Below are positions 15,607 through 45,942 of a stretch of DNA of 64,000 bases, one piece after another. The stretch spans positions 186,001 to 250,000 of the forward strand of contig JBCCPK010000004.1 of NCBI GenBank assembly GCA_039024915.1. Direction: 5' to 3'. The position numbers were made by a program, and so were the translations under genes. This DNA is from Pseudomonadota bacterium (GTDB lineage Bacteria > Pseudomonadota > Alphaproteobacteria > Rhizobiales > MH13). Position 1 is the stretch's first letter, and every line of letters begins with the position of its first letter. The notes beneath the pieces were generated by a model, which saw only the letters and a program-made list of their open reading frames with translations, was not told the DNA's origin and did no database searches.

Positions 15607-16230
15607 TCAGGCAGCACGCAGTCCGCCAACGTCCAACAGAAACGATATGATTGGCTCGACGCCCTTGCCCGCGCGCAGGTCGGTGAAAACGTGGGCACGT
15701 CCCGCCCGCGCAGCAGTGGCATCCGCACGCATACGGTCAAGGTCAGCTCCAACATGAGGCGCCAGATCGGCCTTATTGATGATCAGTATATCCGAGCGTG
15801 TGATGGCGGGGCCACCTTTCCTAGGGATGTCTTCGCCCTGGCAGACGGAAATGACGTACAGGCTGAGATCTGCGAGGTCCGGCGAGAAAGTCGCGGCGAG
15901 GTTGTCGCCACCTGACTCGATGAAGACAATGTCGAGATCGGGATGGCGCGTGCACAAGCGATCAATTGCGCGCAAGTTTATCGATGCGTCTTCGCGGATC
16001 GCCGTGTGCGGGCAGCCGCCGGTCTCCACACCCATAATGCGATCTGAGGTGAGAGCTTGCATCCGCACCAGCGCTTCAGCGTCTTCCTTGGTGTAAATGT
16101 CGTTGGTAACAACGCCGACGGAGTAGCGATCGCGCAGTGCGCCGCAAAGAGCTGCTGTGAGGGTCGTCTTACCCGAGCCGACAGGGCCGCCTATTCCGAC
16201 ACGAAGGGGACCGTTCATCAGCTGTGCCAC
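15607..16230 (-). CDS. ureG: urease accessory GTPase UreG
   Basis: GTPase that drives nickel insertion into urease as part of the UreDFG complex. Walker [11 protein letters not shown] lies at residues 13-22, and the metal motif CPH is seen in [34 protein letters not shown] and the guanine motif NKAD ([12 protein letters not shown]) follow. At 207 residues it has normal length, without the His-rich N-terminal tail seen in some UreG proteins; that tail is on UreE here. The start overlaps the end of the membrane protein gene. Last gene of the operon. Confidence 0.97.
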
Positions 16231-16670
16231 GCCTCACCTGGGCCAGCCACCAACAGCGTAAACAGCCCAACGCCAATGGCGGTTATCAGCGGCGAATAAA
16301 GCCGTGCATTGAGCCGGGCGAAAGGTTGTTGCGCGTGTCTATTGGTGACCGCCGGCAGGTAACCTGCCACCCCACGGCCAAGGAAGACCAAGGTAAGCAC
16401 CACCATCCCAAGGCCGACAAACCAATCGGGTAAGGGCAGAGCCAGAGGACCAACCCAGACGAGGGGCCATAGAGCGGCTAGCGCGATCAGGCCTGAGACC
16501 ACCGCCGTTAGTGACTGGTCCGGCATCGCGTCAACACCATTCTGACCGAACACCGTGTGGCTCAGGGAAGTCTCGTCCGTGCCCGGCCATTTTCCGCCCA
16601 GCGCCCAATGCAAGTGTAACAGAGCAATGGCCATGAGCAGCAGTGCAATGACGTTCGCCAAGGCAATCAT
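16218..16670 (-). CDS. DUF3995-type four-helix membrane protein
   Basis: A 150-residue integral membrane protein with four hydrophobic segments, beginning with the DUF3995-like [13 protein letters not shown]. Function unknown. It lies inside the urease operon between ureF and ureG, overlapping both (4 and 13 bases), a recurrent but unexplained association. It contains two His close to the first helix but no clear metal site. It could assist nickel or urea handling; that is inference from position only. Confidence 0.8.
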
Positions 16671-17311
16671 GACAGAAAAATCCTCGGTTCCAGCGTTTCA
16701 TGTTGTCCGCTTGTGATGTCCGCTATGAAAGCCGATCCCCCCAGATCGTCAAGGGTCGACTGTTCTGCCCTTTCAGCGACCACCAGAACCGTTGTTTCCA
16801 GTCGGGCGAGCAGCTGCGCCGCGCCTGTTTGGCCGGTCACGGAAAGCCTGATCGCTGCCTGCAGCTGATTGGAAATCTGGGTTTGCAGGGACGCGGTCAG
16901 GGCCTCCAATAGGGGGATTTTGGCCCGTGCGCTGATGGCTCCAATCGCTACCGGAAGTGGCGCCTCACGCGGGGCGTCGCATATCGCCCACGGCTCCGCA
17001 GCGTGCAGGAACGCAGCGCCCTGGTCCACCGTTTCGCGGTGCCGCTCAGCTGTGGGTGCCAGCGCGCGCGCGAGAGCGGACAGTGAAGGGAGTTTGGACC
17101 CATTGGTACGATAAGCCGCGGCCAGGAGTACGGCATCATTCCACATGCTTCCCGAAGTCAGGATGGTCCTAAGCCACTCTTGCAGTGTCTGTTGGTCATG
17201 AACGCGACCATCGGCGACCGCCTGTTCGAGGCCGACAGAGTAGGCGAAGCCGCCGGTTGGAAACACCGGCGAAAGCCATGCCATCAATCGAGCCAGAGAC
17301 AGGGTGCTCAT
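16667..17311 (-). CDS. ureF: urease accessory protein UreF
   Basis: Scaffold of the UreDFG maturation complex that gates the GTPase UreG. Recognised from LMAWLSPVFPTGGFAYSVGLEQAVADG at the N-terminus, the all-helical composition, QTQISNQLQAAIRLSVTGQTGAAQLLARLE near the C-terminus and a length of 214 residues. It overlaps the genes on both sides by 4 bases. Confidence 0.95.
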   Translation of the reverse strand: MSTLSLARLMAWLSPVFPTGGFAYSVGLEQAVADGRVHDQQTLQEWLRTILTSGSMWNDAVLLAAAYRTNGSKLPSLSALARALAPTAERHRETVDQGAAFLHAAEPWAICDAPREAPLPVAIGAISARAKIPLLEALTASLQTQISNQLQAAIRLSVTGQTGAAQLLARLETTVLVVAERAEQSTLDDLGGSAFIADITSGQHETLEPRIFLS

Positions 17312-17778
17312 TTTCCACCCAGCAGTCGGGCATCGACCGCGCCGCTCGCCTGATTGATGGTGACCGCCAAAGACCGCGGCTGGAAGGTATCGGTTGTCGC
17401 ATTAAAGACCTGAACATCCATGGTCAGGCGCAAGCCGGTTGTGGGGTTGTAGTCCGACGTCATGTCCTCGAACAAAACGCCAGCAAAACCCGAGGACCCG
17501 TCGGCCGATACAACTTTGCATTGCCGGCCACCAAGCTCGTCGAGCGGCGGCGACAGTATGACCAGATGCAGCGCCCCGGCTGCTGGTTCGATCGTATCGG
17601 TGAGCGTAATGCGCACATCGCCGTTAGCGAAGGTTCGGCTGAAAACGTCCCAAGGCTCTACAATGGCTTGCGCCGAAGCTCGCCAGTCGCATTCCGCGAC
17701 CGTCACAGCCTGAGCTGGTGTAGTAAGGAAGGCTGTCAAAGCGGCCGTGACCGCGACCCTAATCGTGGTTGTGATCAT
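17308..17778 (-). CDS. secreted protein of unknown function in the urease operon
   Basis: A 156-residue protein with a signal peptide (VAVTAALTAFLTTPAQA) and a mature domain of mostly beta character (CDWRASAQAIVEPWDVF...VRLTMDVQVFNATTDTFQPRSLAV). Two cysteines are present. I know no function. The start is chosen at 17778 because it gives a normal signal peptide; further in-frame ATGs up to 17862 lie within ureE. The start region overlaps the DNA encoding the His-rich UreE tail in another frame. A periplasmic partner for urea or nickel uptake is conceivable but unproven. Confidence 0.7.
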   Translation of the reverse strand: MITTTIRVAVTAALTAFLTTPAQAVTVAECDWRASAQAIVEPWDVFSRTFANGDVRITLTDTIEPAAGALHLVILSPPLDELGGRQCKVVSADGSSGFAGVLFEDMTSDYNPTTGLRLTMDVQVFNATTDTFQPRSLAVTINQASGAVDARLLGGK

Positions 17779-18313
17779 GGTCGTCATGGTGGTGGTGGTT
17801 TGCATGTGCATCACCATAAGCGCCACCTTCGGGATTGAAAGGGGCTTCGATCTCAGCAACACCCGCCCCCAAGCCTTCGAGCATCGCCTTGATCACGGCA
17901 TCGCGGCGTATACGGATGCGTTTGGCGGAGATATCAGCAGCCAGGTGCCGGTTCCCAATTTGCCAGGCTAGGCTCAGCAGATGGCGCTCGTCATGTCCCG
18001 TGATCTCGTAGAGTGGCTCCGGTGATGCGCGCACTTCGATGACCCGGCCATCGGAAAGCAGGAGCCCCTCGCCATGCTGAAGAAGACGTGCGTCCGGTAG
18101 GTCTAGCAGGAAGGTTATGCCGCCGTCGGACTGCATGCGAAACCGGCGGCGATGTCGGTCAATCTGATCAAGCGTGATGTGGTCGGCCGCGCTGTGTGTA
18201 TGCCCCAGGACTTGGCGACAGGTTGGAAGTCGGTTTGTCTCGCTCACTTTTACTTCCCCTGAGTGCACATTGACCGTTGCGTCAGGATCGAGGGGCGGTT
18301 GGGCGCTGGTCAT
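17759..18313 (-). CDS. ureE: urease accessory nickel metallochaperone UreE
   Basis: Delivers nickel to the UreG-containing complex. The N-terminal domain (LPTCRQVLGHTHSAADHITLDQIDRHRRRF) and the C-terminal metal-binding domain (ITGHDERHLLSLAWQIGNRHLAADI, carrying the conserved GNRH) are both present. The C-terminus ends in a His/Asp tail (ANHHHHDDHDHNHD) typical of nickel-storing UreE. 184 residues. Its start overlaps the upstream hydrolase stop by 4 bases. Confidence 0.94.
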   Translation of the reverse strand: MTSAQPPLDPDATVNVHSGEVKVSETNRLPTCRQVLGHTHSAADHITLDQIDRHRRRFRMQSDGGITFLLDLPDARLLQHGEGLLLSDGRVIEVRASPEPLYEITGHDERHLLSLAWQIGNRHLAADISAKRIRIRRDAVIKAMLEGLGAGVAEIEAPFNPEGGAYGDAHANHHHHDDHDHNHD

Positions 18314-19425
18314 CGACCAAGAACGGCATCGAGGGGTGCCAACACAATCTGTCGTGCGCCTCGAACAACGTTTACGGTTCCCGGTACTTCATCCGCGCCC
18401 GCTACCTGGTCATCTTCCAGCTGTTCACCAAGCTGGGGTGCATTGCGCACAAACTGAATAAGAGACGGGGAACTCAAACCGACGGAGTGATTGAGCTGGT
18501 CGCCAGCGTCCGAGATCTGCGTCAGGTCGATGATTGTGACATTGAAGTCCGATACATCATCGACCGTTCCGATGTTACCCAAGCGCTGTGATTGCCGTGA
18601 AACGGTTGCTGAAAGTCTCAGAGCTCGATCATTTTGTGACGTGAAAATGATGAACGGATTGGGCAGTGGATCGATGCGCCTCGCTTGCGCTTGAAAAACC
18701 TGCACGTCAATGTCTGGTGACATCAAGACGACGCCGCCTATGCCTCTGAGCGTCACGCGGTCTTGGTCAATTGATAGCGATCGGAGCGTCTCCATTGTGA
18801 GGTACGAGCCCATGGAGTGAGCGAGAACGATAATTCTCTCATCGGTAGTTTGCACCAGAAGCTGCAGAAAACGCTCGAACGATTCCCGCGCCGCGAGAAC
18901 GCTGTCTCGATCGTAGACGTATCCGGTGACCGACTCGAGTGAAGGCCATGCGTAGTGAACGGCAAGCCCCGGGACGTCGAAGTCGTAGCGAATCTGCGCA
19001 GCGCGGTAGAGGCTCTGGGCAAAAGTATTGTTGTAGCCGTGAACGTAAACGACCAATTCGCGCTGTCCTGGTGGGCGGTTAGCCTGCGCCTGCCGGAGTG
19101 CGGCTTGGAAGTCAGAACCGCCTGAAAAGTTCTCCGTACCCGCTACCAGAAAGTGCCTGCGGCTGTCCGGCGCGTTTTCAGCGAACGGCACAGATCCCGG
19201 CTGACGGTCTTGTGGCACTGAGACATCGAAGCGGGCAAAACTCAGCTCGGAGGAGCGCTCGCTTGAAAAGCCTTGATCGGTTCGTTTTCGAGACGTGGCC
19301 AGGAAAACGGGCTCGATATCTGTGGCTGATTGGCTCGCTGGGAGGCTTACGATTTCTGGACGCCCTGCGCAGCTCGCTAATGCAATCGCCGCGAAGACTA
19401 TGATCAGCCGATGCCACATACGCAC
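18310..19425 (-). CDS. lipoprotein alpha/beta hydrolase (DUF900-type) in the urease operon
   Basis: A 371-residue protein with a lipoprotein signal (AIALASCAG, lipobox Cys about 19). The DUF900-type alpha/beta-hydrolase domain shows VYVHGYNNTFAQS (oxyanion region), the nucleophile elbow LAHSMGS (Ser), and a likely Asp in MSPDIDVQVF or IFTSQNDRALRLS. Family members have no settled substrate. It sits between ureC (155-base gap) and ureE (4-base overlap), where an unrelated secreted hydrolase is unusual. It may be recruited for amide or ester release outside the cell, which is inference. Confidence 0.82.
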   Translation of the reverse strand: MRMWHRLIIVFAAIALASCAGRPEIVSLPASQSATDIEPVFLATSRKRTDQGFSSERSSELSFARFDVSVPQDRQPGSVPFAENAPDSRRHFLVAGTENFSGGSDFQAALRQAQANRPPGQRELVVYVHGYNNTFAQSLYRAAQIRYDFDVPGLAVHYAWPSLESVTGYVYDRDSVLAARESFERFLQLLVQTTDERIIVLAHSMGSYLTMETLRSLSIDQDRVTLRGIGGVVLMSPDIDVQVFQAQARRIDPLPNPFIIFTSQNDRALRLSATVSRQSQRLGNIGTVDDVSDFNVTIIDLTQISDAGDQLNHSVGLSSPSLIQFVRNAPQLGEQLEDDQVAGADEVPGTVNVVRGARQIVLAPLDAVLGR

Positions 19426-19580
19426 GATCCATGATGCACACTAAGATATAATGCTTAGGCAAACCTACCGGTGCCCACAAGTATGGCCCATACCGTATGC
19501 GGTGGGGCTTATAATGGGGTCCCAAACGCCTTGCCGCAGCGCCATCACTTTTCGTATCGAGCGTACCCGTTCGGGCAGCC

Positions 19581-21293
<1,713 letters not shown>

Positions 21294-21336
21294 GAAGGTT
21301 TCCTTTATTCGCAGGAGTGGAGCGCCACGCGTGTCG

Positions 21337-21687
21337 CTATCCGCTCAGTCCCGGGATCCGCGGACCTTTTCGTGACAGGCGCTGGGCGTTGCGCCGTGTT
21401 TTCGCCTTGGCTGGTTTCACGGCTTCGAGCATCACCGCGGCCGGGTTTGCCCCCTGCCACATGGCCAAAGAGGCCTGCGCAGCGCCCTTTGCGAAGGCCA
21501 ATTGCTTCTCGCGCACCATCATCTCGTTTTCATTGTCAGACCTATGCCACCAACCCGCGGCGCCCATCGTGCGCATGGCGATGACGGACGACGCCTCCAT
21601 CCCCATCCGCCACATGGCGAAGTTGAGATCGACCAGCGACCCGGCCGTCTTGCTCGCCCGTGTGGCGGCGCGTCTTGCAGTACTCAT
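21337..21687 (-). CDS. small conserved alphaproteobacterial protein between ureB and ureC
   Basis: A 116-residue, mostly helical basic protein ([26 protein letters not shown]...[18 protein letters not shown]...[16 protein letters not shown]). It resembles small alphaproteobacterial proteins sometimes annotated as antifreeze or phasin-like; that label is unreliable. No signal peptide. It is placed between ureB and ureC on the same strand, with gaps of 29 and 43 bases. The helix-rich amphipathic pattern suits a phasin-like or scaffolding role. Function unknown. Confidence 0.7.
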
Positions 21688-21716
21688 GGAATAACAATCC
21701 TGTCCGTCGGTGTGTT

Positions 21717-22022
21717 TCAGAGTTTGCCCATCACATCTTGGCGAAACCCGTAGACCTCGCGTTTGCCGCCAAGGGGCACAAGCGTGACGTCGCGTTCCTG
21801 GCCCGGTTCAAACCGAACCGCCGTGCCCGCAGCAATGTCGAGCCTCATGCCGCGGGCTACATCCCGGTCGAACGCGAGAGCCGGATTGGTCTCGAAGAAA
21901 TGATAATGCGAGCCGACTTGGACTGGCCGATCGCCCGTGTTCGCGACTTTAAGCGTTACCGCAGCCTGACCATGGTTAAGCGTAATGTCCGGGCCATCCG
22001 TGATCACTTCACCGGGGATCAT
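21717..22022 (-). CDS. ureB: urease beta subunit UreB
   Basis: Structural subunit of the urease trimer. 101 residues with [16 protein letters not shown] at the N-terminus, [18 protein letters not shown] in the middle and [19 protein letters not shown] near the end, all diagnostic. Its start overlaps the preceding small membrane protein gene by 14 bases. Confidence 0.97.
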
Positions 22023-22251
22023 CGATGCTATCCTTTCCCAACAGAGGTGTTGCGCCGCGTGGGCGGCTGTCCCGGTCAGAGAATCGGGACGTCGGAAACC
22101 CTGGCGCGTCGATTTCGTCAGGTGGAAGCGTTCTGCGCCAAGGCCTGCCGGTCAACACCCGGAATCCGATGAACCCCATGACCACCACAAGCGCGATGCC
22201 AATCGCGAGAAGGTCAAAGCTGGCCAACGGGTGGTAGGTGTTGAGGTTCAT
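22009..22251 (-). CDS. small single-pass membrane protein in the urease operon
   Basis: An 80-residue protein with one N-terminal transmembrane helix ([22 protein letters not shown]) and a charged Arg/Pro/Asp-rich tail. No known family. ATG at 22251 is chosen; a GTG at 22290 is possible but would overlap the DUF1272 gene. It ends inside ureB. Such small orphan genes are interspersed through this urease operon. Confidence 0.55.
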
Positions 22252-22258
22252 GTCGTGC

Positions 22259-22516
22259 TTAAGCTGCGCGCCTTGCGACGCAATCCTCACGCTTGCCGAT
22301 CACCCGCGTCGTTGATGGCGGGTGCTTGGCAAGTTGTGCAGCGGGGCGAATTGGCCGCGGCACAAAATTACCGCCGCAGTTGGGGCAGATTCCGCCAAGC
22401 ACCTCTTCCACGCAGTCACTGCAAAATGTGCACTCGTAGGTGCAGATCATAGCATCCGTGGCTTGTGGCGGTAGGTCCTTGTCGCAGCACTCGCAATTGG
22501 GCTTGAGGATCAGCAT
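22259..22516 (-). CDS. DUF1272 family cysteine-rich protein
   Basis: An 85-residue zinc-ribbon-like protein: CECCDKDLPP, CTYECTFCSDCVEE and CPNCGG give ten Cys in pairs, typical of DUF1272, followed by the conserved PRPIRPAAQL. It probably binds one or two zinc ions. It lies between ureA (10 bases) and ureB. The family has no established function. Confidence 0.85.
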   Translation of the reverse strand: MLILKPNCECCDKDLPPQATDAMICTYECTFCSDCVEEVLGGICPNCGGNFVPRPIRPAAQLAKHPPSTTRVIGKREDCVARRAA

Positions 22517-22526
22517 GTCTTATCTC

Positions 22527-22829
22527 CTATCGGATAGGCTCGTGCACAGTGACAAGCTTCGTGCCGTCTGGAAACGTCGCTTCGACCTGCACATCATGGA
22601 TCATCTCGGCAACGCCTTCCATGACATCGGCTCGGCTGATGACGTGTGCCCCCGCTTCCATAAGGTCTGCAACTGCTTGCCCATCGCGCGCGCCCTCGAC
22701 GACGAAGTCCGTGATCAAAGCGATCGCCTCGGGGTGGTTGAGCTTGACCCCTCGTTCCAACCTGCGACGTGCAACGTTGGCGGCCATGGCAACCAGCAGT
22801 TTATCTTTCTCGCGCGGCGTGAGTTGCAT
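22527..22829 (-). CDS. ureA: urease gamma subunit UreA
   Basis: 100 residues with the invariant N-terminus [23 protein letters not shown], the [11 protein letters not shown] block and VTVHEPIR at the end. Small structural subunit of urease. It follows ureD by 36 bases. Confidence 0.97.
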
Positions 22830-22865
22830 TACAGGGTCCTTGAACGGTGCAGGTTCGGAGGCTTT

Positions 22866-23804
22866 TCAGAGCGACCAGATTTTTGGAACGGCGGGTGCCG
22901 CTTGATTGGTTGCGCCATGCGCCAGGTGATTGATCAGCGGGATCAGGGCCGCGCGCAAATCATACCCACCGGTTGCGGCTACGCGTGCGATAAGTTTTGA
23001 CTGTCCGCCAACTTGCCAACATGAGACACTGGCGACCGTATTTTTCGCAGCGCCCATAAGGTCTCGGGCTCCTTCCAGTTTCGCCTCGGCATGGTTGCCG
23101 AACAAGGCTACCGTTGCAAGGGCCGTCATCGCCGGTAGGCTCGCAACCCTGTCCAAATGTTCAGCAATATCCCCCATAAGTCGCACGTTTTCTGCGTGGA
23201 TTAGCTCGCCATTATGGAGGATTCGCCAGCGGTCTACCCATGTACCCTGTTTGAGCGCCTCGCCCATCGCCGTCCGACCGAAAATGATCGGCTCGACCAG
23301 CAGAAGCGATGAACGATCGTGTAGATCAGCTGTAATGGTCCGATGAAGATGCGCGCGATCAAACAGGATCGTTTCCTGCGGAAGCCACTGCAATCGGGCG
23401 CCTTGAGCCACAGTCAACTTGATATCGACGGTGGCTGCTCCGTCATCGGATTTGTAGACTTTTTCGCACGCCTGCGTCGTGACCGTCACCCGCGTATCTG
23501 GCCCTGCAACGAGGTCCCATGACAGCTCGTCACCGCCCGTCACGCCGCCTGCGGTGTTGATCAAAACTGCTTCGAGGTCAGTGCGGCCGTGATGATCGGG
23601 GACGCGAATCCGAGCAGCTGCCTGTTGATAGAGCCGATCAAGACGACTTCGGCCGTCATGCCCCTGCTTGACAGTAAGGCCGCCTATGCCTTGTGTGCGC
23701 TGGAGCATGAGCCTGCTGCCGCTCTTAAGCGTGACCGGGCGGTTGTCGCCTTCGTGGCCACCGGACAGAGCTGGCACGGAAGGCGTCGTCAGGTGTTCGT
23801 TCAA
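22866..23804 (-). CDS. ureD: urease accessory protein UreD (UreH)
   Basis: Binds apo-urease and forms the nickel tunnel with UreF. Characteristic features are LINTAGGVTGGDEL, VTTQACEKVYKSDDG, WLPQETILFDRAHLHR and LVEPIIFGRTAMGE. 312 residues. Its ATG overlaps the puuD stop codon by 4 bases, so urease synthesis is coupled to urate hydroxylase. Confidence 0.95.
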   Translation of the reverse strand: MNEHLTTPSVPALSGGHEGDNRPVTLKSGSRLMLQRTQGIGGLTVKQGHDGRSRLDRLYQQAAARIRVPDHHGRTDLEAVLINTAGGVTGGDELSWDLVAGPDTRVTVTTQACEKVYKSDDGAATVDIKLTVAQGARLQWLPQETILFDRAHLHRTITADLHDRSSLLLVEPIIFGRTAMGEALKQGTWVDRWRILHNGELIHAENVRLMGDIAEHLDRVASLPAMTALATVALFGNHAEAKLEGARDLMGAAKNTVASVSCWQVGGQSKLIARVAATGGYDLRAALIPLINHLAHGATNQAAPAVPKIWSL

Positions 23805-36615: not shown

Positions 36616-39009
36616 CTAGGCGAGTGCCTTCATCCTTTCGACAGCCATCAGGATGCGCTCAGGGGTGCAGGGTGTGTCAAGCCTTGGGCAAACCGCATAG
36701 TTACCAACAGAAGCGACGGCCATCGATAGCGCTTCCACGACGCTCGCCGCGAGCATGAAGGGTGGCTCGCCGACGGCCTTTGAGCGCCGGATGGTTTTCT
36801 CGCGATTGACCGACCAATCCACAAGGTGCGTCCTGAAGACTGCGGGGCGATCGGACGCGAGCGGAATTTTGTAGGTGGATGGCGCGTGGGTGCGCAGTTG
36901 GCCCTTGTTGTCCCACCAAAGCTCCTCAGTGGTAAGCCAGCCCATCCCCTGGACAAATGCACCCTCAACCTGGCCGACATCGATGGCCGGATTGAGAGAC
37001 TTACCCACATCATGCAGGAGGTCCGTTCGATCGACATGATATTCACCTGTGAGGGTATCGATTGAGACTTCCGATACCGCGGCGCCGTAAGCGAAGTAGT
37101 AAAACGGGCGGCCCTTACCCTTCTCCCTGTCCCAGTGAATTTCTGGCGTTTTGTAGAAACCTGCAGCCGACAGATGGATGCGCTTGAGATAGGCCCTGTC
37201 GATGAGCTCTGGAAACGGTATTTGCTGATTGCCGACGCGGACTGCATTCGGTTCAAACGCGACCTGATTCCGGTCGACCTGAAACTCCTCGCAGGCAAAT
37301 TCGATCAGGCGATCTTTAATCTGATTGGCAGCGTTGTCGGCAGCCATCCCGTTGAGATCGGAGCCAGACGATGCGGCCGTCGCCGATGTGTTGGGTACCT
37401 TGTCGGTAGTCGTCGCTGTGATTTTCACATGGTCGAGATCGATCTGGAAAACATCAGCGACAACTTGCGCGACCTTGGTGTTCAGTCCTTGGCCCATTTC
37501 GGTGCCGCCATGGTTGAGATGGACCGACCCATCCCGATAGACGTGAACAAGGGCACCAGCCTGATTGTACCAGGTTGCGGTGAACGAGATACCGAACTTG
37601 ACTGGCGTCAACGCGATGCCCTTCTTGATGATCGGGCTTTCCGCGTTGAACGCATGGATGGACTTGCGGCGCGCCTGATAATCCGAGCGCTCTTCAAGCT
37701 CATCGACGATCCGATGGATGATATTATCTGTGACCGTCTGGTGGTACGGCGTGACGCGGCGACCGGTATCGGTGCCCTCGGCGTCATAGAAATTGCGCCG
37801 CCGGACTTCGAGCGGATCAAGTCCCAGCTTATAGGCGATTTCCTCTACAATGCGCTCGGCGACGATCAAGCCCTGCGGACCGCCAAACCCCCTGAACGCG
37901 GTGTTGGAGACCGTGTTGGTCTTCAGCGGCTGAGACTGCAACAGGACGTTTGGGTAGTGGTAGCAGTTATCGGCGTGAAACAGCGCGCGATCGGTAACCG
38001 GGCCCGAAAGATCGGCTGAGAAGCCGCATCGCGCTGCGAAAGTGGCCTCCACGGCTGTGATCTGACCGGTATCATCATAACCAACATCGTAATCAACGAC
38101 GAAGTCGTGCCGCTTTCCCGTTGTGATCATGTCGTCGTCGCGATCGGGGCGTATCTTGACGGCGCGCCGATGCTTGCGGGCGGCAACTGCAGCAAGGGCC
38201 GCGTATTGGTTCGACTGGGTCTCTTTGCCGCCAAACCCGCCACCCATCCGGCGCACATTGACGGTAACCGCCGCCGATGGGACGCCCAGTACATGGGCGA
38301 CCATATGTTGAACTTCACTGGGATGCTGGGTTGAGGACGTGACCGTCATATCATCGTCTTCACCGGGGACGGCGAGCGCGATGTGGCCTTCGAGATACAT
38401 ATGGTCCTGGCCACCGATCTCGTAGCGACCTTGCAGGCGGTTTTTCGCATCCTTGAGCGCGCCGAAGGCATCACCGCGTTTGAGTGTCAGCGGTTTGGTT
38501 ACAAGGCCCAGGTCTAGCGCGCGCGCCTCCTCAATGGTCCTTGCGAAGGGCTTTTCGCTGTAGGTGATCTTGGCCTTCTGTGCAGCTGCGCGCGCGGCGT
38601 CCCGGCTGGCCGCGATAACCGCGAAAATCGGCTGGCCGAAGAAAGCGACTTCGCGCTCTGCGAGCACAGGCTCATCGTGTAGGTGCGTTGGGGAAATGTC
38701 GTTCGACGCGGGCATATCCTGCGCGGTCAGGACACCGACGACGCCTGGAGCGCTCCTCACCGACGACAGGTCCATGGTTTCAATCGAACCGCAAGCGATT
38801 GTGGAGAGCCCCAGATAAGCATGGAGTGCGCCGACGGGCAGCGAGATGTCGTCACAATAGACAGCCTCGCCTGTGACGTGCTTCGGACCGGAGTCATGTT
38901 TGGTGCTTTGATGCACCCCACCCTTGATTGAGGGTCCGGGCTCAATCCCAGCATCAATGTGCTTGACAGCTTTGGAAACCGTCGGTGGTTGGGTGAATTG
39001 CTTGTTCAA
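36616..39009 (-). CDS. xdhB: xanthine dehydrogenase molybdopterin-binding subunit XdhB
   Basis: Large catalytic subunit oxidising hypoxanthine/xanthine to urate. 797 residues; GEAVYCDDI, VRRMGGGFGGKETQ, FRGFGGPQGLIVAERIVEEIA and HGGTEMGQGLNTKVAQV (Moco loop) are visible. ATAASSGSDLNGMAA and VGQVEGAFVQGMGWLTTEEL follow, with catalytic Glu in KAVGEPPFMLAASV. Translationally coupled to xdhA by a 4-base overlap. Confidence 0.96.
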   Translation of the reverse strand: MNKQFTQPPTVSKAVKHIDAGIEPGPSIKGGVHQSTKHDSGPKHVTGEAVYCDDISLPVGALHAYLGLSTIACGSIETMDLSSVRSAPGVVGVLTAQDMPASNDISPTHLHDEPVLAEREVAFFGQPIFAVIAASRDAARAAAQKAKITYSEKPFARTIEEARALDLGLVTKPLTLKRGDAFGALKDAKNRLQGRYEIGGQDHMYLEGHIALAVPGEDDDMTVTSSTQHPSEVQHMVAHVLGVPSAAVTVNVRRMGGGFGGKETQSNQYAALAAVAARKHRRAVKIRPDRDDDMITTGKRHDFVVDYDVGYDDTGQITAVEATFAARCGFSADLSGPVTDRALFHADNCYHYPNVLLQSQPLKTNTVSNTAFRGFGGPQGLIVAERIVEEIAYKLGLDPLEVRRRNFYDAEGTDTGRRVTPYHQTVTDNIIHRIVDELEERSDYQARRKSIHAFNAESPIIKKGIALTPVKFGISFTATWYNQAGALVHVYRDGSVHLNHGGTEMGQGLNTKVAQVVADVFQIDLDHVKITATTTDKVPNTSATAASSGSDLNGMAADNAANQIKDRLIEFACEEFQVDRNQVAFEPNAVRVGNQQIPFPELIDRAYLKRIHLSAAGFYKTPEIHWDREKGKGRPFYYFAYGAAVSEVSIDTLTGEYHVDRTDLLHDVGKSLNPAIDVGQVEGAFVQGMGWLTTEELWWDNKGQLRTHAPSTYKIPLASDRPAVFRTHLVDWSVNREKTIRRSKAVGEPPFMLAASVVEALSMAVASVGNYAVCPRLDTPCTPERILMAVERMKALA

Positions 39010-40502
39010 GCCGCTACCTCCGTCGCGTCCGAAAGGCGTCGTTTGAGGCGAACCGGCTGATCCGTATCAGCGTGTTCCAGATAAAAGCGGGTCAAGAGGT
39101 TCTGCGCGCTCAAAAGCCTATAGTCCGACGTCCCGCGCCAATCGCTCAGCGGTTGGTAGTCTTCCGCGAAGAGGGGCCTTGCAGCGTCGATGGTCTGACA
39201 AGACCATTGCTTGCCGGTCAGGGCAGCTTCGACTGCCTTTGCACGTTTGGGCGTACCTGCCATTCCGCCAAAAGCGATCCGGCATGCGGAAATGGTTTGA
39301 CCATCAAGTCGCACATGAAACGCACCGCACAGTGCCGAAATATCTTCGTCGCGGCGCTTGGAGATTTTATAGGCAGCGTTCAGCGAGCTGCTTTCTGGCC
39401 TGGGTATGCGTACCGCCTCGACATATTCTCCCGGGCGACGGTCTTGCTTGCCGTAGCTGATGAAAAAGTCCTCGAGTGGAAGATGCCGAACACCCTCGGT
39501 CGAGCGCAACACCACCGTGGCCCCGAGTGCTATGAATGCAGGCGGGCTGTCTCCTATCGGTGAGCCGTTTGCAATGTTGCCGCCGATCGTCCCCATATTG
39601 CGGACCTGCGGACCACCGATCCTCCACCATAACTCATCAAGGTGGGGCAGGTGCTCTTGCAACACAGGTATGAAGGCCGAATAACTAACCCCCGCTCCAA
39701 GTGTGATTTCGGTGTCTGACACTTTGATGGTTTGCAGCGCATCAATGTTCCCGATGAACGCAGCTGGGCTGATCGAGCGGTAGTCCTTGTTGACCCAAAG
39801 GCCGACGTCGGTTGCTCCTGCAACAATCGTCGTTCCCGGGAACGACGCTAGCAGCGTCGATAGCTGTGCCGGTGTTTTTGGAACAAACAATCGCTCCTCA
39901 CCATTTGGCGCATCCGATACAACCTCAACCAGAGTGTCGTCTTGCCAATCCGACAGGAGTTGCGTGACGCGATCACGCTCCTTCATGAGAATGTCGTTTG
40001 CCGGCGTGTCATAATCAGAAATCGCTTTTGCTGCCTTGATGATCGGCTCATAGCCCGTGCAGCGACACAGGTTGCCTTGCAGCGCCGTTTCGATCTGCGC
40101 TGTCGTGGGACGCGGCTCTTCCATCCAAAGTGCGTAGAGGCTCATCACGATTCCTGGCGTGCAAAAACCGCATTGGGATCCATGATGGTCGACCATGGCT
40201 TGTTGGACGGGATGCAACCGCCCACCGCGTGCCAAGTGTTCAATCGTCACGACGTGACAGCTATCGAGCGAGCCGACAAACCGGATGCAGGCATTGAGGC
40301 TCTGGTAGGTGAGCGTGCCCGCTATCAGCCTGCCGACGAGTACCGTGCAGGCGCCGCAGTCACCCTCATTGCACCCTTCTTTGGTGCCGGTCATTGAACG
40401 TTGCAGGCGCACCAAGTCCAAAAGGGTCTCGCCGGGGCGAACATCATCGCGCTCGACAACCTCATCGTTCAGCAAGAACCGAATTGCAGGCCGCGTCGCC
40501 AT
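39006..40502 (-). CDS. xdhA: xanthine dehydrogenase small subunit XdhA (2Fe-2S and FAD)
   Basis: Electron-transfer subunit, 498 residues from ATG at 40502. The N-terminal plant-type ferredoxin (GCNEGDCGACTVLVG) and second 2Fe-2S domain (SQCGFCTPGIVMSLYAL, GNLCRCTGYEPIIKAA) come first. The FAD domain follows (IVAGATDVGLWVNK, MGTIGGNIANGSPIGDSPPAFIALGA) and a CO-dehydrogenase flavoprotein C-terminal domain. The frame is open to 40640 but conserved sequence begins at the chosen ATG. First gene of xdhABC-guaD-ydeI. Confidence 0.95.
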   Translation of the reverse strand: MATRPAIRFLLNDEVVERDDVRPGETLLDLVRLQRSMTGTKEGCNEGDCGACTVLVGRLIAGTLTYQSLNACIRFVGSLDSCHVVTIEHLARGGRLHPVQQAMVDHHGSQCGFCTPGIVMSLYALWMEEPRPTTAQIETALQGNLCRCTGYEPIIKAAKAISDYDTPANDILMKERDRVTQLLSDWQDDTLVEVVSDAPNGEERLFVPKTPAQLSTLLASFPGTTIVAGATDVGLWVNKDYRSISPAAFIGNIDALQTIKVSDTEITLGAGVSYSAFIPVLQEHLPHLDELWWRIGGPQVRNMGTIGGNIANGSPIGDSPPAFIALGATVVLRSTEGVRHLPLEDFFISYGKQDRRPGEYVEAVRIPRPESSSLNAAYKISKRRDEDISALCGAFHVRLDGQTISACRIAFGGMAGTPKRAKAVEAALTGKQWSCQTIDAARPLFAEDYQPLSDWRGTSDYRLLSAQNLLTRFYLEHADTDQPVRLKRRLSDATEVAA

Positions 40503-40953
40503 CCCACTCTCATGTAAGGTTTTTCCCGAGTGTTTTATATAAGCTTCAATGCAGGCTTCTGCGCAAGCAATAAGCGTGAGGAAAGAATGGGCGATTCTGC
40601 CGCGGCAAGCGGCAGGTCTCTGACTGGTCACCGGTCGCAAGACGCTGTTTCATTGCAGCAATCGGATGGACCTTCCTTATGGGCGTCTTCCGCGCGCGGT
40701 TTGTAAGTGCTTGGTGGTTGCTTTGTGAGCGGTCTGTCAAAAGGCGGTGCCAATGCAAACCGCGCCGTGTTGAAAGGCGTCAAACCAAGTCAGCGATGAG
40801 GGCGCTTAGGGACGGAATACCGATCGATCGTCGCACCTGTCGACGAAAGTTGCTGAATTTTTCGGCATATCGCCTAATTCTTGGGGTCCTGCAGTCCCGG
40901 TCGCCGGTCGGAGATGGCGCCACCCTGGCCTGTTTCCTTCAGGCCGATAGCGC
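40503..40953. other. divergent intergenic region between xdhA and the guanidine operon
   Basis: About 450 bases without a supported gene. It must contain the xdhA promoter on the minus strand; I found no convincing sigma-70 or sigma-54 match there. A 112-codon rightward frame (40679-41017) overlaps the sigma-54 promoter and riboswitch and has no coding features. NtrC sites would be expected here but none was recognised by eye. Confidence 0.4.
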
Positions 40954-40969
40954 TGGCACACGGCTTGCT
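40954..40969 (+). promoter_or_regulatory. sigma-54 (-24/-12) promoter of the guanidine operon
   Basis: TGGCACA-CGGC-TTGCT matches the RpoN consensus TGGCACR-N4-TTGCW at every defined base. The expected transcription start, about 12 bases after the -12 GC, is 40980-40981, exactly the first base of the riboswitch P1 stem. This implies nitrogen control (NtrC-type activator) over the operon. Confidence 0.85.
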
Positions 40970-40980
40970 AACTCACAGTC

Positions 40981-41100
40981 GTGCAGCGGACATCTAGGGT
41001 TCCGGTTTTCTCAGTGAAGAGAAAGCGCTGGTCCGAGAGATGTCACCTGACCAAGATAGTCAGGTACACGGCGGGGCAAAATCCCGGGAGACATCTGCAC
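40981..41100 (+). ncRNA. guanidine-I riboswitch (ykkC class)
   Basis: All conserved blocks of the ykkC guanidine-I aptamer are present in order: CTAGGGTTCCG (from 40993), CTGGTCCGAGAGATG, the ACACGGCGGG segment, and CAAAATCCCGGGAGA. P1 is closed by GTGCAG (40981-40986) with CTGCAC (41095-41100). The expression platform probably includes the hairpin AGGTTTGCGC/GCGCAAGCCT at 41100-41119. Ligand binding would turn on the downstream uptake and hydrolysis genes. Class assigned by recognising the conserved sequence, which is highly specific. Confidence 0.95.
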
Positions 41101-41201
41101 AGGTTTGCGCGCGCAAGCCTCCTCCCGGTCAGCGTGCTCAAAACTCATTCATGTGCGGCAACACACAAGCCGAAACGAGCGAGCAGAGAAGCGAGACTTC
41201 A

Positions 41202-42275
41202 ATGATCAGGACATCAAAAACACTAGCGGCCGCCGCCTTGGTTGGTTCCGCGGCTCTTATGACGAGCGGGGCTGGCGCTCCGGCCAGTGCGCAGGAGCGG
41301 ACCAGCTTCAGCGTATGCTGGTCAATCTATGTTGGCTGGATGCCCTGGGGGTACCTCGAAGACTCCGGTATCATGGACAAGTGGGCGGAGAAGTACGGTA
41401 TCGATGTCGAGATCGTTCAAATCAACGACTATGTCGAGTCAATCAACCAGTATACTGCCGGGCAATATGATGGTTGCTCGATGACCAATATGGACGCTTT
41501 GTCCATTCCCGCCGGTGGCGGCGTCGACACCACAGCGCTGATCGTCGGAGACTTCTCCAACGGAAATGACGGTATTGTCCTCAAGGATGGCGACAGCGTT
41601 GAGGCTCTTGCCGGCCAGGATGTCAATCTGGTCGAGCTGTCGGTTTCCCACTACCTTTTGGCACGCGCGCTCGACGGGGTTGGCCTCTCCGAACGTGATC
41701 TGACGGTCGTCAACACCTCCGACGCGGACATGATCGCCGCCTACGCGACTGACGACGTCACATCGGTTGTTACCTGGAACCCTCTCCTTTCACAGATCGA
41801 GGCGACACCGGGCTCCACCAAGGTTTTCGATAGCTCCGACATTCCAGGCGAGATCATCGACATCATGATGGTCAACACCGAGACACTGGCCGCCAACCCC
41901 GACTTCGGCAAAGCGCTCGTGGGTGCGTGGTACGAAGTTATGGGGCTGATGGAAGCTGGCGATACTGAAGTGCTGGAGGCGCTTGCCTCTGCGTCGGGGA
42001 CCGATCTCGCCGGTTATCAAGCCCAGCTCGATACGACGACGATGTTTTACGATCCAGCCGATGCAGTGGCGTTCACCAGTGCACCTGAGCTGCCGACGAC
42101 CATGCAGTTCGTGGCAGAGTTTCTTTTTGATAAAGGGATTTTGGGCGAGGGTGCACCATCACCTGAATTTGTAGGCGTCAGCTTTCCTGATGGCTCGATT
42201 TACGGGGACGAAAACAATGTGAAACTGCGGTTTGACACGACGTTCATGCAGATGGCGGCCGATGGCGCACTGTGA
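41202..42275 (+). CDS. ABC transporter substrate-binding protein, urea-carboxylase-region type (putative guanidine receptor)
   Basis: Periplasmic receptor of the NMT1/nitrate-taurine-like class, closest to the family linked to urea/guanidine carboxylase loci. 357 residues; signal peptide ending GAPASAQ, then FSVCWSIYVGWMPWGYLEDSG, INDYVESINQYTAGQYDGCSMTNMDAL, GGVDTTALIVGDFSNGNDGIV and VVTWNPLLSQI, all characteristic. ATG at 41202 follows the riboswitch leader; the longer open frame from 41040 starts inside the aptamer and is rejected. Control by a guanidine riboswitch makes guanidine the probable ligand. Confidence 0.9.
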   Translation: MIRTSKTLAAAALVGSAALMTSGAGAPASAQERTSFSVCWSIYVGWMPWGYLEDSGIMDKWAEKYGIDVEIVQINDYVESINQYTAGQYDGCSMTNMDALSIPAGGGVDTTALIVGDFSNGNDGIVLKDGDSVEALAGQDVNLVELSVSHYLLARALDGVGLSERDLTVVNTSDADMIAAYATDDVTSVVTWNPLLSQIEATPGSTKVFDSSDIPGEIIDIMMVNTETLAANPDFGKALVGAWYEVMGLMEAGDTEVLEALASASGTDLAGYQAQLDTTTMFYDPADAVAFTSAPELPTTMQFVAEFLFDKGILGEGAPSPEFVGVSFPDGSIYGDENNVKLRFDTTFMQMAADGAL

Positions 42276-42339
42276 GCTCCGCCATTGACGGCACTTTGTA
42301 GGGTTTGACGGGCGCTGCGGCGTCCGTCACGCCTACACC

Positions 42340-43161
42340 ATGCGCCTGATCAACCGCTTTCCCAGCCGGGCCACCGGTCTTGCCCTTGCTGCGATCCCCT
42401 TTGCGGCAACCATCGTCGCTTATGCGGTGGCAAGCCACTATCGACGGCTGGAAAACCCCGCCGATAAGCTTCTGCCATCACTCGAGCAGATGGGGGCAAC
42501 GTTCTGGCGTATGGCCACGGAACCGGATCGCCGAACCGGAGATCTGCTGCTTTGGGTCGATACGTTCGACAGCTTGGTGCGCCTGGGTTTTGGGATCGGT
42601 CTCGCCACCATCTTTGCGCTCGTCATCGGGATGCTGATCGGCTTCCTGCCGCACATTCGCGCAGCGCTTTCACCCTATATCGCCGCGATATCACTCATCC
42701 CACCGATTACCATCCTGCCAATTCTCTTCCTCATGGTCGGGCTTGGTGAGGCGTCAAAGATACTGCTGGTTGCGCTTGGAACCGCGCCCGTCATGACCCG
42801 ATCCATCGCGCAAGCCGTTATGGACATACCCAAAGAGCTGGTCATCAAGGCCCAAACGCTGGGCGCAACGACGTGGCAGATGATGGTACGCCTGGTGCTA
42901 CCGCAGGTTCTTCCCAAGCTTATCACCGCGCTTCGGCTTGGTCTTGTGCCCGGATGGATATTCCTGATTTCCGCTGAAGCGATCGCGTCGACATCCGGTC
43001 TTGGCTACCGAATCTTCTTGGTACGGCGCTTTCTCGCGATGGACGTGATCCTGCCCTACGTCGCCTGGATAACGCTTTTGGCCTATGTCATCGACCAGCT
43101 TTTGTTGGCCCTTTCGAAACGGACGTTCCGTTGGGCGCATTTGCAAGGTGAAAGCCTGTGA
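42340..43161 (+). CDS. ABC transporter permease (putative guanidine importer)
   Basis: 273-residue permease with about six helices and the coupling loop DIPKELVIKAQTLGATTWQMMVRLVLPQVLPKLITALRLG, followed by ISAEAIASTSGLGYRIFLVRRFLAMDVILPY. Belongs with the nitrate/taurine-type permeases seen at urea carboxylase loci. Overlaps the ATPase start by 4 bases. Confidence 0.9.
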   Translation: MRLINRFPSRATGLALAAIPFAATIVAYAVASHYRRLENPADKLLPSLEQMGATFWRMATEPDRRTGDLLLWVDTFDSLVRLGFGIGLATIFALVIGMLIGFLPHIRAALSPYIAAISLIPPITILPILFLMVGLGEASKILLVALGTAPVMTRSIAQAVMDIPKELVIKAQTLGATTWQMMVRLVLPQVLPKLITALRLGLVPGWIFLISAEAIASTSGLGYRIFLVRRFLAMDVILPYVAWITLLAYVIDQLLLALSKRTFRWAHLQGESL

Positions 43162-43967
43162 GCGCCCTGCCAAAGATCAAGGTTCGCAATCTCACCAAGT
43201 CCTATGGTGATACGATCGTTCTGGAGCGGATCAACCTCGATATCGCTGAGGGCTCGTTCTGCACCATTGTCGGCGCTTCGGGCTGCGGAAAGTCAACCTT
43301 CTTGCGCATGTTGCTCTCGCAGGAACACCCATCGGGTGGGCAGATCCTTCTAAACGACGCGCCGCTGCCCCGGGAGCCGACACCGGATCGCGGGATCGTC
43401 TTCCAAAAGTACTCCGTGTTCCCGCACCTCAGCGTAGAAGACAATCTGATCTTGGCTGATGAGTTTGACGGGGGCGGGCCCGCGGCAAGGCGTTTTGGAA
43501 GCGCTCGCACGCTCGCGCGCGAAAAAGTCACCGAAACGCTCCGGAAAATTGGCCTTGAAGCCGCCCGCAAACGCTACCCAGCGCAGCTATCCGGCGGCAT
43601 GCAACAGCGGCTGGCGATTGCCCAGGCCCTCCTAAAGAAGCCTGATGTACTGCTCCTTGACGAGCCATTCGGCGCGCTCGACCCGGGCATCCGTCTTGAT
43701 ATGCACGAGCTGCTTCTTGAGCTTTGGACAGAGCGCAAGATGACGGTTTTCATGGTGACTCATGACATTCAGGAGGCCTTCAAGCTCGGCACTCGTCTGC
43801 TTGTTTTCGACAAGACCCGACACGATCCGCACCAGCCCGAGCGTTACGGTGCGACGATAACCTACGACCTGCCTTTGGAAAGTGATGCCAAACATGCGTT
43901 GCTTGATGACGGGCACTTGATTTCCAAACGTCCCGAACATGGAGGCAACCATGCGCCTGCCCAATGA
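43158..43967 (+). CDS. ABC transporter ATP-binding protein (putative guanidine importer)
   Basis: 269 residues from a GTG. Walker A GASGCGKSTFLRML, Q-loop FQKYSVFPHLSV, signature LSGGMQQRLAIAQAL, Walker B VLLLDEPFGALDPG and switch VTHDIQEAFKLGTRLLVF are present. Nitrate/taurine-type subfamily with a longer C-terminal tail. Its last codons overlap the guanidine hydrolase gene, which starts within it. Confidence 0.92.
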   Translation: MSALPKIKVRNLTKSYGDTIVLERINLDIAEGSFCTIVGASGCGKSTFLRMLLSQEHPSGGQILLNDAPLPREPTPDRGIVFQKYSVFPHLSVEDNLILADEFDGGGPAARRFGSARTLAREKVTETLRKIGLEAARKRYPAQLSGGMQQRLAIAQALLKKPDVLLLDEPFGALDPGIRLDMHELLLELWTERKMTVFMVTHDIQEAFKLGTRLLVFDKTRHDPHQPERYGATITYDLPLESDAKHALLDDGHLISKRPEHGGNHAPAQ

Positions 43968-45213
43968 CCTTCGACCCGAGCGGATACGGCGCCAAGCGGG
44001 CCTTGCCGAGCAATCGGAGCATGAACTTTACCACCATCCGGATTTTGACAAGCTCAACATGCGCGGTTGGAAGGCTGCCGAGAAAGAGGGCGAACTGCCT
44101 TCCGCTGCTTGGCAGCAAGAGCGGGCTTGGGCACTGCGCATGGGGCTTACCGGATCGGACAGTCTCGACGATAAATCGATACCCACGTTTGCTCGCGGCG
44201 AGCTTCCTCATTATGCGGGAATCAACACCTTCCTGAAAGCGCCCTACATCGAAGATGCGACGAAGGTTGGCGCCTATGATGCGGCGATTATCGGCATCCC
44301 GTTCGACGGTGGCACAACCTACCGCCCCGGAACGCGCTTCGGACCACAAGGCGTTCGTAAGATTTCCGCGCTGTACACACCGTATAACTATGAAATGGGC
44401 ATCGATCTTCGCGAGCAAATGACCCTTTGCGATGTCGGAGACGTCTTCACCATTCCCGCCAACATCGAAAAGACTTTCGATCAGATTTCTCGCGCCGTCA
44501 GCCATGTGACCTCCTCCGGTGCCCTGCCGATCATGATCGGTGGCGATCATTCCATCGGCTTTCCCTGCGTGCGCGGCATCGCGCAATGCACGTCCAAGCG
44601 TATAGGCATCGTCCACTTTGATCGGCACATCGACATCCAGGAGAAGGATCTCGACGAGCGTATGCATACCACTCCATGGTTTCATGCCACAGATCTTGCG
44701 AACGTACCGGCAGTGAACCTGGTGCAGGTTGGCATTGGCGGCTGGCAGGTGCCGCGCGAAGGCGTTGAGGAAGCCCGCAAGCGCAACACCAATATTTTCA
44801 CGATGCGCGACATTGAGGAGATGGGTCTCGCCGAGACCGCGGCGCGTGCGCTGGAGCTTGCCTGGAAGGATGCCGACGCGGTTTATATTTCCTTCGATAT
44901 AGACAGCGTGGACTGCGGCTTCGTCCCGGGCACCGGATGGCCAGAGCCCGGCGGGTTCTTACCGCGAGAAGCCCTGGAGCTGGTCTCGCTGGTTGCAAAA
45001 GAAGGCATTTGCGGGCTTGAGGTTGTCGAGGTTTCGCCGCCTTACGATACCTCTGACATCACAGCACTTCTGGCTACGCGCGTGATTGTCGATGTCCTCG
45101 GAACGTTGGTTAGCCATGGCAAAATGGGTTCGCACAAATCCATTATAGACAAGCCGGTCACCATTCCGCACGGGCCTGATGTCGGCTCGCAAGGCTGGGA
45201 GCTGAAGCCGTGA
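43951..45213 (+). CDS. gdmH: guanidine hydrolase, GdmH-like (ureohydrolase superfamily)
   Basis: Agmatinase/arginase-fold enzyme expected to hydrolyse guanidine to urea and ammonia with a dinickel centre. 420 residues; metal ligands His200 (GGDHS), Asp224, His226, Asp228 (FDRHID), Asp316 and Asp318 (SFDIDSVD). The motif FDRHID with QEKDLDERMHTTPWFHATD just after it, the long N-terminal extension, and VPGTGWPEPGGFLPREAL and VVEVSPPYDTSDIT match the cyanobacterial guanidine hydrolase group. Ordinary agmatinases have DAHxD instead. ATG at 43951 follows GGAGG by five bases and is preferred over 43939. Riboswitch control supports the substrate. Confidence 0.9.
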   Translation: MRLPNDLRPERIRRQAGLAEQSEHELYHHPDFDKLNMRGWKAAEKEGELPSAAWQQERAWALRMGLTGSDSLDDKSIPTFARGELPHYAGINTFLKAPYIEDATKVGAYDAAIIGIPFDGGTTYRPGTRFGPQGVRKISALYTPYNYEMGIDLREQMTLCDVGDVFTIPANIEKTFDQISRAVSHVTSSGALPIMIGGDHSIGFPCVRGIAQCTSKRIGIVHFDRHIDIQEKDLDERMHTTPWFHATDLANVPAVNLVQVGIGGWQVPREGVEEARKRNTNIFTMRDIEEMGLAETAARALELAWKDADAVYISFDIDSVDCGFVPGTGWPEPGGFLPREALELVSLVAKEGICGLEVVEVSPPYDTSDITALLATRVIVDVLGTLVSHGKMGSHKSIIDKPVTIPHGPDVGSQGWELKP

Positions 45214-45662
45214 ACAAAGACCATATCCATGCGCATCTGCATGATCATGATCACGCGCACACACCGGGACACAATCACAGCCACGATCACATGCACTCGC
45301 ATGTTCATGTCGATTCAAAAAAGGAGCGGCAGGATCGGCTAAACGCGTTGGCTGCCTCCTTTATAGACGGCTTCCGAAATGCAGACGATAAGCCGGCGTT
45401 CTTGGAACTCGCGGGAATTCCGACGAGCCGAACGGGCGCCGACGGGTTAAAAATGCATCTCGTTGACGCAACCGTTGAAGCGAAATGGCAGCTCGGAACG
45501 GCCTCACCCGCCTTCGGGTCTCGCGAATTGGTATACTTGCCCTATCCGGCATCGATGGTTGGTGAGCGTGAGACCATGACATTTACATATGTGTCGCTGA
45601 CACAGCGCGAAGACGTCGATCTGTTTGTCCTGTTCGAACAGCGAAATGAACGTGCCGGTTAA
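45210..45662 (+). CDS. histidine-rich protein, putative nickel carrier for guanidine hydrolase
   Basis: 150 residues from a GTG overlapping the gdmH stop by 4 bases, so production is coupled. Residues 5-33 contain 14 histidines in alternating H-x-H spacing, a metal-binding tail like those of UreE, HypB or SlyD. The remaining 115 residues (KKERQDRLNALAASFIDGFRNADDKPAFLELAGIP...) form a small domain that I do not recognise; it is not HypA, HypB or UreE. No signal peptide. Cyanobacterial GdmH needs HypA/HypB-like helpers; none is present in this operon, so this protein is a plausible substitute. Function is inferred. Confidence 0.8.
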   Translation: MNKDHIHAHLHDHDHAHTPGHNHSHDHMHSHVHVDSKKERQDRLNALAASFIDGFRNADDKPAFLELAGIPTSRTGADGLKMHLVDATVEAKWQLGTASPAFGSRELVYLPYPASMVGERETMTFTYVSLTQREDVDLFVLFEQRNERAG

Positions 45663-45865: not shown

Positions 45866-45942
45866 TGGTGACCCCGGCGCGATTCGAACGCGCGACCTCC
45901 GGATTAGGAATCCGCCGCTCTATCCAGCTGAGCTACGGGGCC
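45866..45942 (-). tRNA. tRNA-Arg (anticodon CCT)
   Basis: On the minus strand a 77-base cloverleaf starts GGCCCCGTAGCTCAGC. The anticodon loop ATTCCTAAT (anticodon CCT) and the T-arm GGTTCGAATC-type segment (GCGTTCGAATCGC) follow. It ends GGGGTCACCA with CCA encoded. The acceptor stem pairs fully with one G-U. Reads the AGG codon. Confidence 0.96.

Follow-up and report, generated by a model that had tools for sequence, protein, structure and literature searches.

A histidine-rich protein encoded beside alphaproteobacterial guanidinase genes under a guanidine riboswitch: a candidate nickel-delivery family

Background

In the cyanobacterium Synechocystis a guanidinase, nickel-delivery proteins and an ATP-binding cassette (ABC) transporter are found under a guanidine-I riboswitch, according to the available sections of two reports (PMC8390497; PMC12186494). 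For comammox Nitrospira, the accessible part of the literature calls the nickel loading of guanidinase without chaperone genes unclear (PMC11410670). Metformin hydrolase has HypA and HypB genes upstream and hupE downstream, and its activation depends on HypA/HypB in the portions of the study at hand (PMC11399263). Here we describe a five-gene operon in a 64,000-nucleotide stretch of contig JBCCPK010000004.1 (assembly GCA_039024915.1) from an alphaproteobacterium of the order Rhizobiales; this whole stretch is called the window and all positions are counted within it. A guanidine-I riboswitch is followed by genes for an ABC transporter, a GdmH-type guanidinase and a histidine-rich protein of 150 amino acids, here called ACC (Table 1).

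The riboswitch, the importer class and the enzyme are of known kinds and the new part is ACC, a candidate nickel-delivery family. It is apparently undescribed in the literature and family libraries covered, a coverage that excludes Funck et al. 2022, where such a description would most likely be found. A preliminary description of this DNA had announced a new type of accessory protein in its title without arguing for it; this is the part that proved truly new and that is now far better supported, with nickel handling as the proposed function. The complete ykkC guanidine-I aptamer, the receptor, permease and ATPase of the urea-carboxylase-region type, the GdmH-like ureohydrolase and the short overlaps joining the histidine-rich protein, all read in that description, were likewise borne out. 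The overlaps are 4 bases between permease and ATPase, 17 between ATPase and hydrolase and 4 between hydrolase and ACC; the receptor and permease genes are 64 bases apart.

Distribution of ACC

A search with the enzyme among 397 genomes of the order (E ≤ 1e-120) gave 41 genomes. In 39 of these the identity is 71-100%, in the other two 57 and 54%. Each of the 39 genomes with a close guanidinase has ACC downstream of gdmH on the same strand, found in 37 with the ACC protein and in two (G351 and G357) with an ACC profile. The search with the ACC protein alone overlooked these two genuine members, so a solitary divergent ACC in another genome of the order could likewise have been overlooked. Among the 40 genomes matched by the ACC protein, three (G250, G107 and G138) were dropped because the matches were partial, short stretches near the histidine-rich end, with no match to the core profile at E ≤ 1e-8. 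The enzyme occurs in seven of 398 sampled genomes of the phylum; these are also the seven matched by the ACC profile, with ACC downstream of gdmH in each. Neither the protein search of the 397 genomes nor the profile search of the 398 placed ACC anywhere but beside gdmH.

A third set, named loci from the enzyme search, comprises the best 80 of 576 confirmed. ACC lies directly after gdmH in 79 of these, and the remaining one (L175) is cut off by the end of its contig right at the gdmH stop codon. By label the 80 are alphaproteobacterial except L142, a metagenome-assembled genome labelled Anaerolineae that is possibly misbinned or has received the locus by transfer. The order, phylum and named-locus sets overlap in genomes and are thus not independent. 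The arrangement of riboswitch, ABC genes, gdmH and ACC is a common alphaproteobacterial form and not peculiar to this genome, so the earlier view of a distinct organisation has to be given up. Among 11 plasmid records with the enzyme, ACC adjoins it in all seven alphaproteobacterial ones and in none of the four actinobacterial ones.

In two loci (L046 and L051) the riboswitch, gdmH and ACC occur together without this kind of ABC genes alongside, which indicates that ACC stays with the enzyme and not with the transporter. At L047:5981-7495 (+) the gdmH open frame lacks its N-terminal part, no riboswitch or transporter was found nearby and ACC is intact; probably the locus is decaying or was misassembled.

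Distances were compared for 101 loci with all five proteins after removal of identical GdmH. Of the ten protein pairs, GdmH and ACC show the highest correlation (Pearson 0.876, Spearman 0.849; next 0.831 and 0.719), to which, as to all the other values, a common past within one operon contributes. ACC is the fastest diverging protein with a mean p-distance of 0.53 compared to 0.216 for GdmH. In a guanidinase tree of 49 rows (the window, 40 random ACC loci of sufficient length and eight loci without ACC) the ACC-bearing guanidinases form one side of a branch with support 100/99. The outgroup branches are long and their order is therefore unsure.

Sequence and predicted structure of ACC

ACC consists of a histidine-rich N-terminus, approximately residues 1-35 with GHN at 20-22, and a conserved core at residues 36-150, and most of the conserved positions sit in the core, not in the tail. 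Across 124 loci, the open frame before the core has a median of 17 histidines in up to 60 residues. In some members it has only 6-7, a number that suggests a discrete site and not a bulk tail. HN precedes the core in 121 loci; in L142, L174 and L203 this part is short, cut off or not in frame. Two types can be distinguished: QWQ follows GHN in 29 loci, and of the 95 loci without QWQ 92 can be anchored at HN, with G preceding in 81 and H following in 88. Cysteine is rare in the core (any in 13 of 124).

Database records name the protein "hypothetical protein" and no NCBIfam model matches it over its cut-off. The Pfam search of ACC found no HypA domain (PF01155), no CobW/HypB/UreG GTPase domain and no UreE_N or UreE_C domain, and the same search recognises the true UreE of the window. 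The histidine stretch has matches below the NCBIfam cut-offs to HypB_prefix_1 (E 0.11, 13.9 bits, cut-off 30), a nickel/cobalt efflux transporter (E 0.12) and DmeF (E 0.24), and the only sequence match in PDB at E ≤ 10 is the histidine-rich PA4063 (E 0.11). A profile of 108 ACC cores matched no PDB chain at E ≤ 10, and the same cores searched against Pfam gave three families with one member each (E 0.04-0.05).

Two structure models have a mean pLDDT (predicted local distance difference test) of 85.2 for the whole protein and 92.1 for the core, which is predicted with high confidence to contain two helices and a beta sheet, closed by a further helix. Compared with solved structures, the models gave only weak matches: Foldseek against PDB reached E values of 0.21 and 0.24 at best and VIA-align Z scores of 2.5 and 2.7, with COMMD and tudor domains among the VIA-align rows. 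These matches point neither to a new fold nor to a relationship.

Nickel-related genes near ACC and in the genomes

A gene of the nickel-permease family HupE/UreJ follows ACC on the same strand in 14 of the 124 loci, starting 30-198 bases past the core; an example is L051 (PF04955, 185.1 bits). A HupE-family gene after ACC is also present in four more Sinorhizobium fredii plasmids. In all, five large S. fredii plasmids (L102 and L220-L223) carry consecutive genes for receptor, permease, ATPase, GdmH, ACC and a HupE-family protein. At least two of these plasmids are typed as conjugative and come from legume-nodulating rhizobia, an origin which suggests that guanidine use may matter in the rhizosphere.

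The genome of the window, which is 97.63% complete, has no match to HypA (PF01155), and its best match to HypB (TIGR00073) reaches 77.3 bits compared to a cut-off of 121.2 and is ureG in the window itself (G000:C4:201634-202191, window 15634-16191). Nothing over the cut-off for urea carboxylase (TIGR02712) was found in this genome, only partial matches at both ends of the profile, and there was no match to DUF1989 (PF09347, carboxyguanidine deiminase). Both absences, of HypA/HypB-like helpers and of a carboxylase branch, had been proposed from the operon alone and extend to the genome searched. Guanidine would thus go via hydrolysis to urea and then to urease.

HypA was found in 11 of the 41 genomes with gdmH-like genes (10 of the 39 with ACC, two matches being partial) and is thus absent from 29 of 39; HypB exceeds the cut-off in 10 of 41, or 9 of those with ACC. 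These genes are never beside gdmH and lie on other contigs or more than 250 kb away. Hence most genomes with ACC are without the Hyp system, and those that have one still keep ACC. The HypA/HypB-type nickel-delivery proteins of Synechocystis we take to be GhaA and GhaB.

Identity of the hydrolase

The hydrolase, which has the arginase-family domain, is a GdmH-type guanidinase by class and residues, an assignment made from sequence comparison. Its best solved relatives are the guanidinases of Synechocystis (7esr/7oi1, E 3.2e-162) and Nitrospira inopinata (9fek, E 1.3e-157), followed by a guanidinobutyrase at E 6.7e-51. The PDB labels of the two leading relatives read "probable agmatinase 2" or "putative agmatinase 2", and these entries are guanidinases according to the available part of PMC11410670. 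Identity to the N. inopinata enzyme is 60.7% (218 of 359 positions). All ten active-site residues are kept, namely the six metal ligands H200, D224, H226, D228, D316 and D318 and four residues tied to guanidine hydrolysis, T123, H239, W330 and E360 (numbered from the start at 43951). The threonine and tryptophan that confer guanidine specificity are T97 and W305 in Synechocystis and T105 and W313 in N. inopinata, as given in the accessible sections of PMC11410670. That guanidine is the substrate of this enzyme, that it depends on nickel and that the transporter carries guanidine are what we infer from these relationships.

In an alignment of 131 related sequences eight of the ten positions are invariant. 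The threonine is present in 130 rows, the other row being cut short, and the tryptophan in 128; Embleya has threonine instead, and G367 and G396 carry divergent genes with serine. The latter two, the 57 and 54% matches of the order search, were not accepted as guanidinases because of the serine and because they have neither riboswitch nor ACC. GdmH-like genes with serine for tryptophan and without riboswitch or ACC, as at L204:6992-8281 (-) and L205:4110-5372 (-), possibly encode a sister enzyme with another substrate.

Riboswitch and leader

The Rfam model finds the riboswitch in 15 of 21 gdmH loci searched. The six misses are two loci at contig ends (L032 and L037), the two divergent genes, Rubrobacter radiotolerans and Nonomuraea. 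A second model built from the 15 rows, the window included, recovers it from 77 of the 80 named loci, with one match cut by a contig end, and from 33 of 40 other loci; training loci account for at least 4 of the 77 and for 10 of the 33. The three misses among the 80 (L126, L142 and L172) have contigs ending 0.9-1.4 kb upstream of gdmH, and the seven among the 40 are four contig ends, L047 with its broken gdmH and the two divergent genes. Among the four actinobacterial loci the search covered the two of Rubrobacter and that of Nonomuraea, and in the stretches searched of R. radiotolerans and Nonomuraea no riboswitch was found. A plasmid of Rubrobacter indicoceani (L198:5798-8777, +) has riboswitch, a guanidinase with threonine and tryptophan, and a sodium:solute symporter near urease genes, without ABC genes or ACC; the symporter is a different uptake solution.

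Pairing in the leader between CTCCCGG and the 3' CCGGGAG of the aptamer would compete with the aptamer, as expected of an expression platform. Of 15 riboswitches, eight, all closely related to that in the window, have a complement 27-31 bases downstream of the 3' CCGGGAG; the other seven do not. No intrinsic terminator was found on the + strand of the leader and no U-tract, and its folding energy is unremarkable (z -1.73). The pairing as an expression platform is a lead only, read from the sequence.

Table 1. Features of the guanidine operon and the urease cluster in the window.
Feature	Positions	Strand	Evidence
Guanidine-I riboswitch aptamer	40983..41092	+	RF00442, 83.2 bits, gathering 63, model 1-107 of 107 (full length)
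Post-aptamer leader, possible expression platform	41093..41201	+	CTCCCGG about 30 bases on could pair with aptamer 3' CCGGGAG
ABC substrate-binding protein (receptor), probably for guanidine	41202..42275	+	TIGR03427 ABC_peri_uca, 550.7 bits, cut-off 333.9
ABC permease	42340..43161	+	PF00528, 71.7 bits
ABC ATPase	43158..43967	+	PF00005, 115.4 bits
gdmH-type guanidinase	43951..45213, or earlier ATG at 43939	+	PF00491, 262.5 bits
ACC, histidine-rich protein of 150 amino acids, last operon gene	45210..45662	+	no Pfam family at E ≤ 1
Urease cluster	15607..23804	-	UreG PF02492, UreF PF01730, UreE PF05194/PF02814, alpha subunit PF00449, UreD PF01774

Surroundings of the operon

The urease genes are separate from the guanidine operon and approximately 20 kb from it, and a urate oxidase gene follows the urease cluster (15.6-23.8 kb). 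Upstream of the operon are two genes on the - strand (36616-40640) which we take to encode subunits of xanthine dehydrogenase. Urease, urate oxidase and these presumed xanthine dehydrogenase genes are grouped at 15607-40640 (-), so that the guanidine operon borders a region of purine- and urea-type nitrogen scavenging. The Rfam model 5_ureB_sRNA matches at 20852-21140 (+) with 102.9 bits, antisense to the urease alpha-subunit gene. As this model also matches antisense to ureC of R. indicoceani (L198), it probably reflects conserved coding sequence and not a small RNA.

A tRNA gene lies 3' of the operon on the opposite strand (45869-45942, -). gdmH is missing from three genomes of the same genus, in only one of which the gene downstream of the tRNA was matched. 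With the tRNA gene directly 3' and these relatives without gdmH, insertion at this place may be how the operon was acquired.

Discussion

We regard it as likely that the locus is a guanidine-induced operon for nitrogen assimilation and that its ACC delivers nickel to GdmH. Guanidine would bind the riboswitch in the leader and permit expression, the ABC transporter would bring guanidine into the cell and the GdmH-type enzyme would convert it to urea and ammonia, after which the separate urease would free the remaining nitrogen from urea. The histidine-rich N-terminus of ACC with its near-invariant GHN would bind nickel, and the folded core would dock on GdmH so that the metal is passed to the active site. 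ACC, itself with no GTPase, would in this way replace the HypA/HypB-type chaperones of the cyanobacterial guanidinase and metformin hydrolase. This proposal builds on the riboswitch, the class and residues of the enzyme, the gene order, the tie between ACC and gdmH, the lack of HypA/HypB here and the recurrent HupE/UreJ genes in relatives, all found computationally. With somewhat less assurance, we favour the wider view that ACC, with its GHN-containing histidine-rich tail and conserved alpha/beta core, constitutes an undescribed family of GTPase-free nickel metallochaperones that arose once with the alphaproteobacterial guanidinases, replacing the HypA/HypB pair and sometimes partnered with its own HupE.

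Several observations weigh against nickel delivery by ACC. No HupE/UreJ gene is found beside ACC in 110 of 124 loci, the window included, and some members carry only 6-7 histidines before the core. ACC is missing from three actinobacterial loci whose guanidinase genes have the threonine and tryptophan (two in Rubrobacter and one in Nonomuraea), and a histidine-rich tail can bind other metals than nickel. A common history is usual for genes of one operon, and for this reason the correlation between GdmH and ACC is no proof of interaction. In addition, comammox guanidinases can obtain nickel with no chaperone genes in the vicinity, as stated in the available part of PMC11410670.

The mostly core-located conservation, the members with few histidines and the strong correlation with GdmH would also suit a structural or regulatory partner of GdmH, such as a stabiliser, an assembly factor or a non-catalytic subunit, in which the histidine-rich tail is secondary; metformin hydrolase, according to the accessible text of PMC11399263, requires a second, homologous subunit. 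Such a partner is rather unlikely in our judgement, because GHN is near-invariant, nearly all members have a histidine-rich start and HupE/UreJ genes occur as neighbours, and because characterised guanidinases are active without one, the N. inopinata enzyme being a homohexamer in the sections available (PMC11410670).

The urease encoded in the same window is a second nickel enzyme that a general buffer or storage protein for nickel or other metals could serve or protect along with the cell, with no specificity for GdmH. Histidine-rich metal-binding proteins of storage type exist. The position of ACC beside gdmH only in the genomes searched, its place under a guanidine riboswitch and its divergence in step with GdmH make this explanation of ACC improbable. 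Most improbable of all is an operon for another guanidino compound in which the hydrolase acts as an agmatinase or on guanidino acids. The nearest NCBIfam models are agmatinases, below their cut-offs, and records of relatives read "agmatinase family protein"; against these names stand the wide lead of the two guanidinases over guanidinobutyrase, the conserved threonine and tryptophan and the guanidine-I riboswitch upstream.

For nickel delivery, ACC is a concrete single-gene candidate for the loading of guanidinase without HypA/HypB. In scores of genomes, several cultured strains included, it is linked to a single enzyme, and the question is thus testable. Recombinant guanidine hydrolases could also be loaded with ACC as a simple partner. 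The survey suggests that many alphaproteobacteria, among them Oricola, Roseibium, S. fredii and roseobacters, use guanidine.

Comparison with described systems

Layouts related to this one have been published for Synechocystis (PMC8390497; PMC12186494) and comammox Nitrospira (PMC11410670), as far as the available parts of these papers go, and this too speaks against a distinct organisation. The operon of Synechocystis GdmH (Sll1077) has the same guanidine-I riboswitch, an ABC transporter and a homologous guanidinase. It differs in its nickel-delivery proteins, which are of HypA/HypB type according to the accessible sections (PMC8390497; PMC12186494) whereas a single unrelated histidine-rich ACC is found here. 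The comammox Nitrospira locus shares the guanidine-I riboswitch, a homologous guanidinase and the lack of HypA/HypB nearby, but has a permease of the APC family in place of the ABC transporter in the portion of PMC11410670 at hand. The MefH operon of metformin hydrolase resembles the present one in combining a nickel ureohydrolase with nickel-delivery genes and, as in some relatives of the window, hupE; it differs in having two homologous subunits and HypA/HypB activators, and the available part of the report mentions no ACC (PMC11399263). Guanidine carboxylase operons share the TIGR03427-type receptor, but use ATP-dependent carboxylation where hydrolysis is predicted here. In comparison with HypA, HypB and UreE, ACC has no shared domain match, but the proposed role is alike and the histidine-rich N-terminus resembles that of some HypB proteins.

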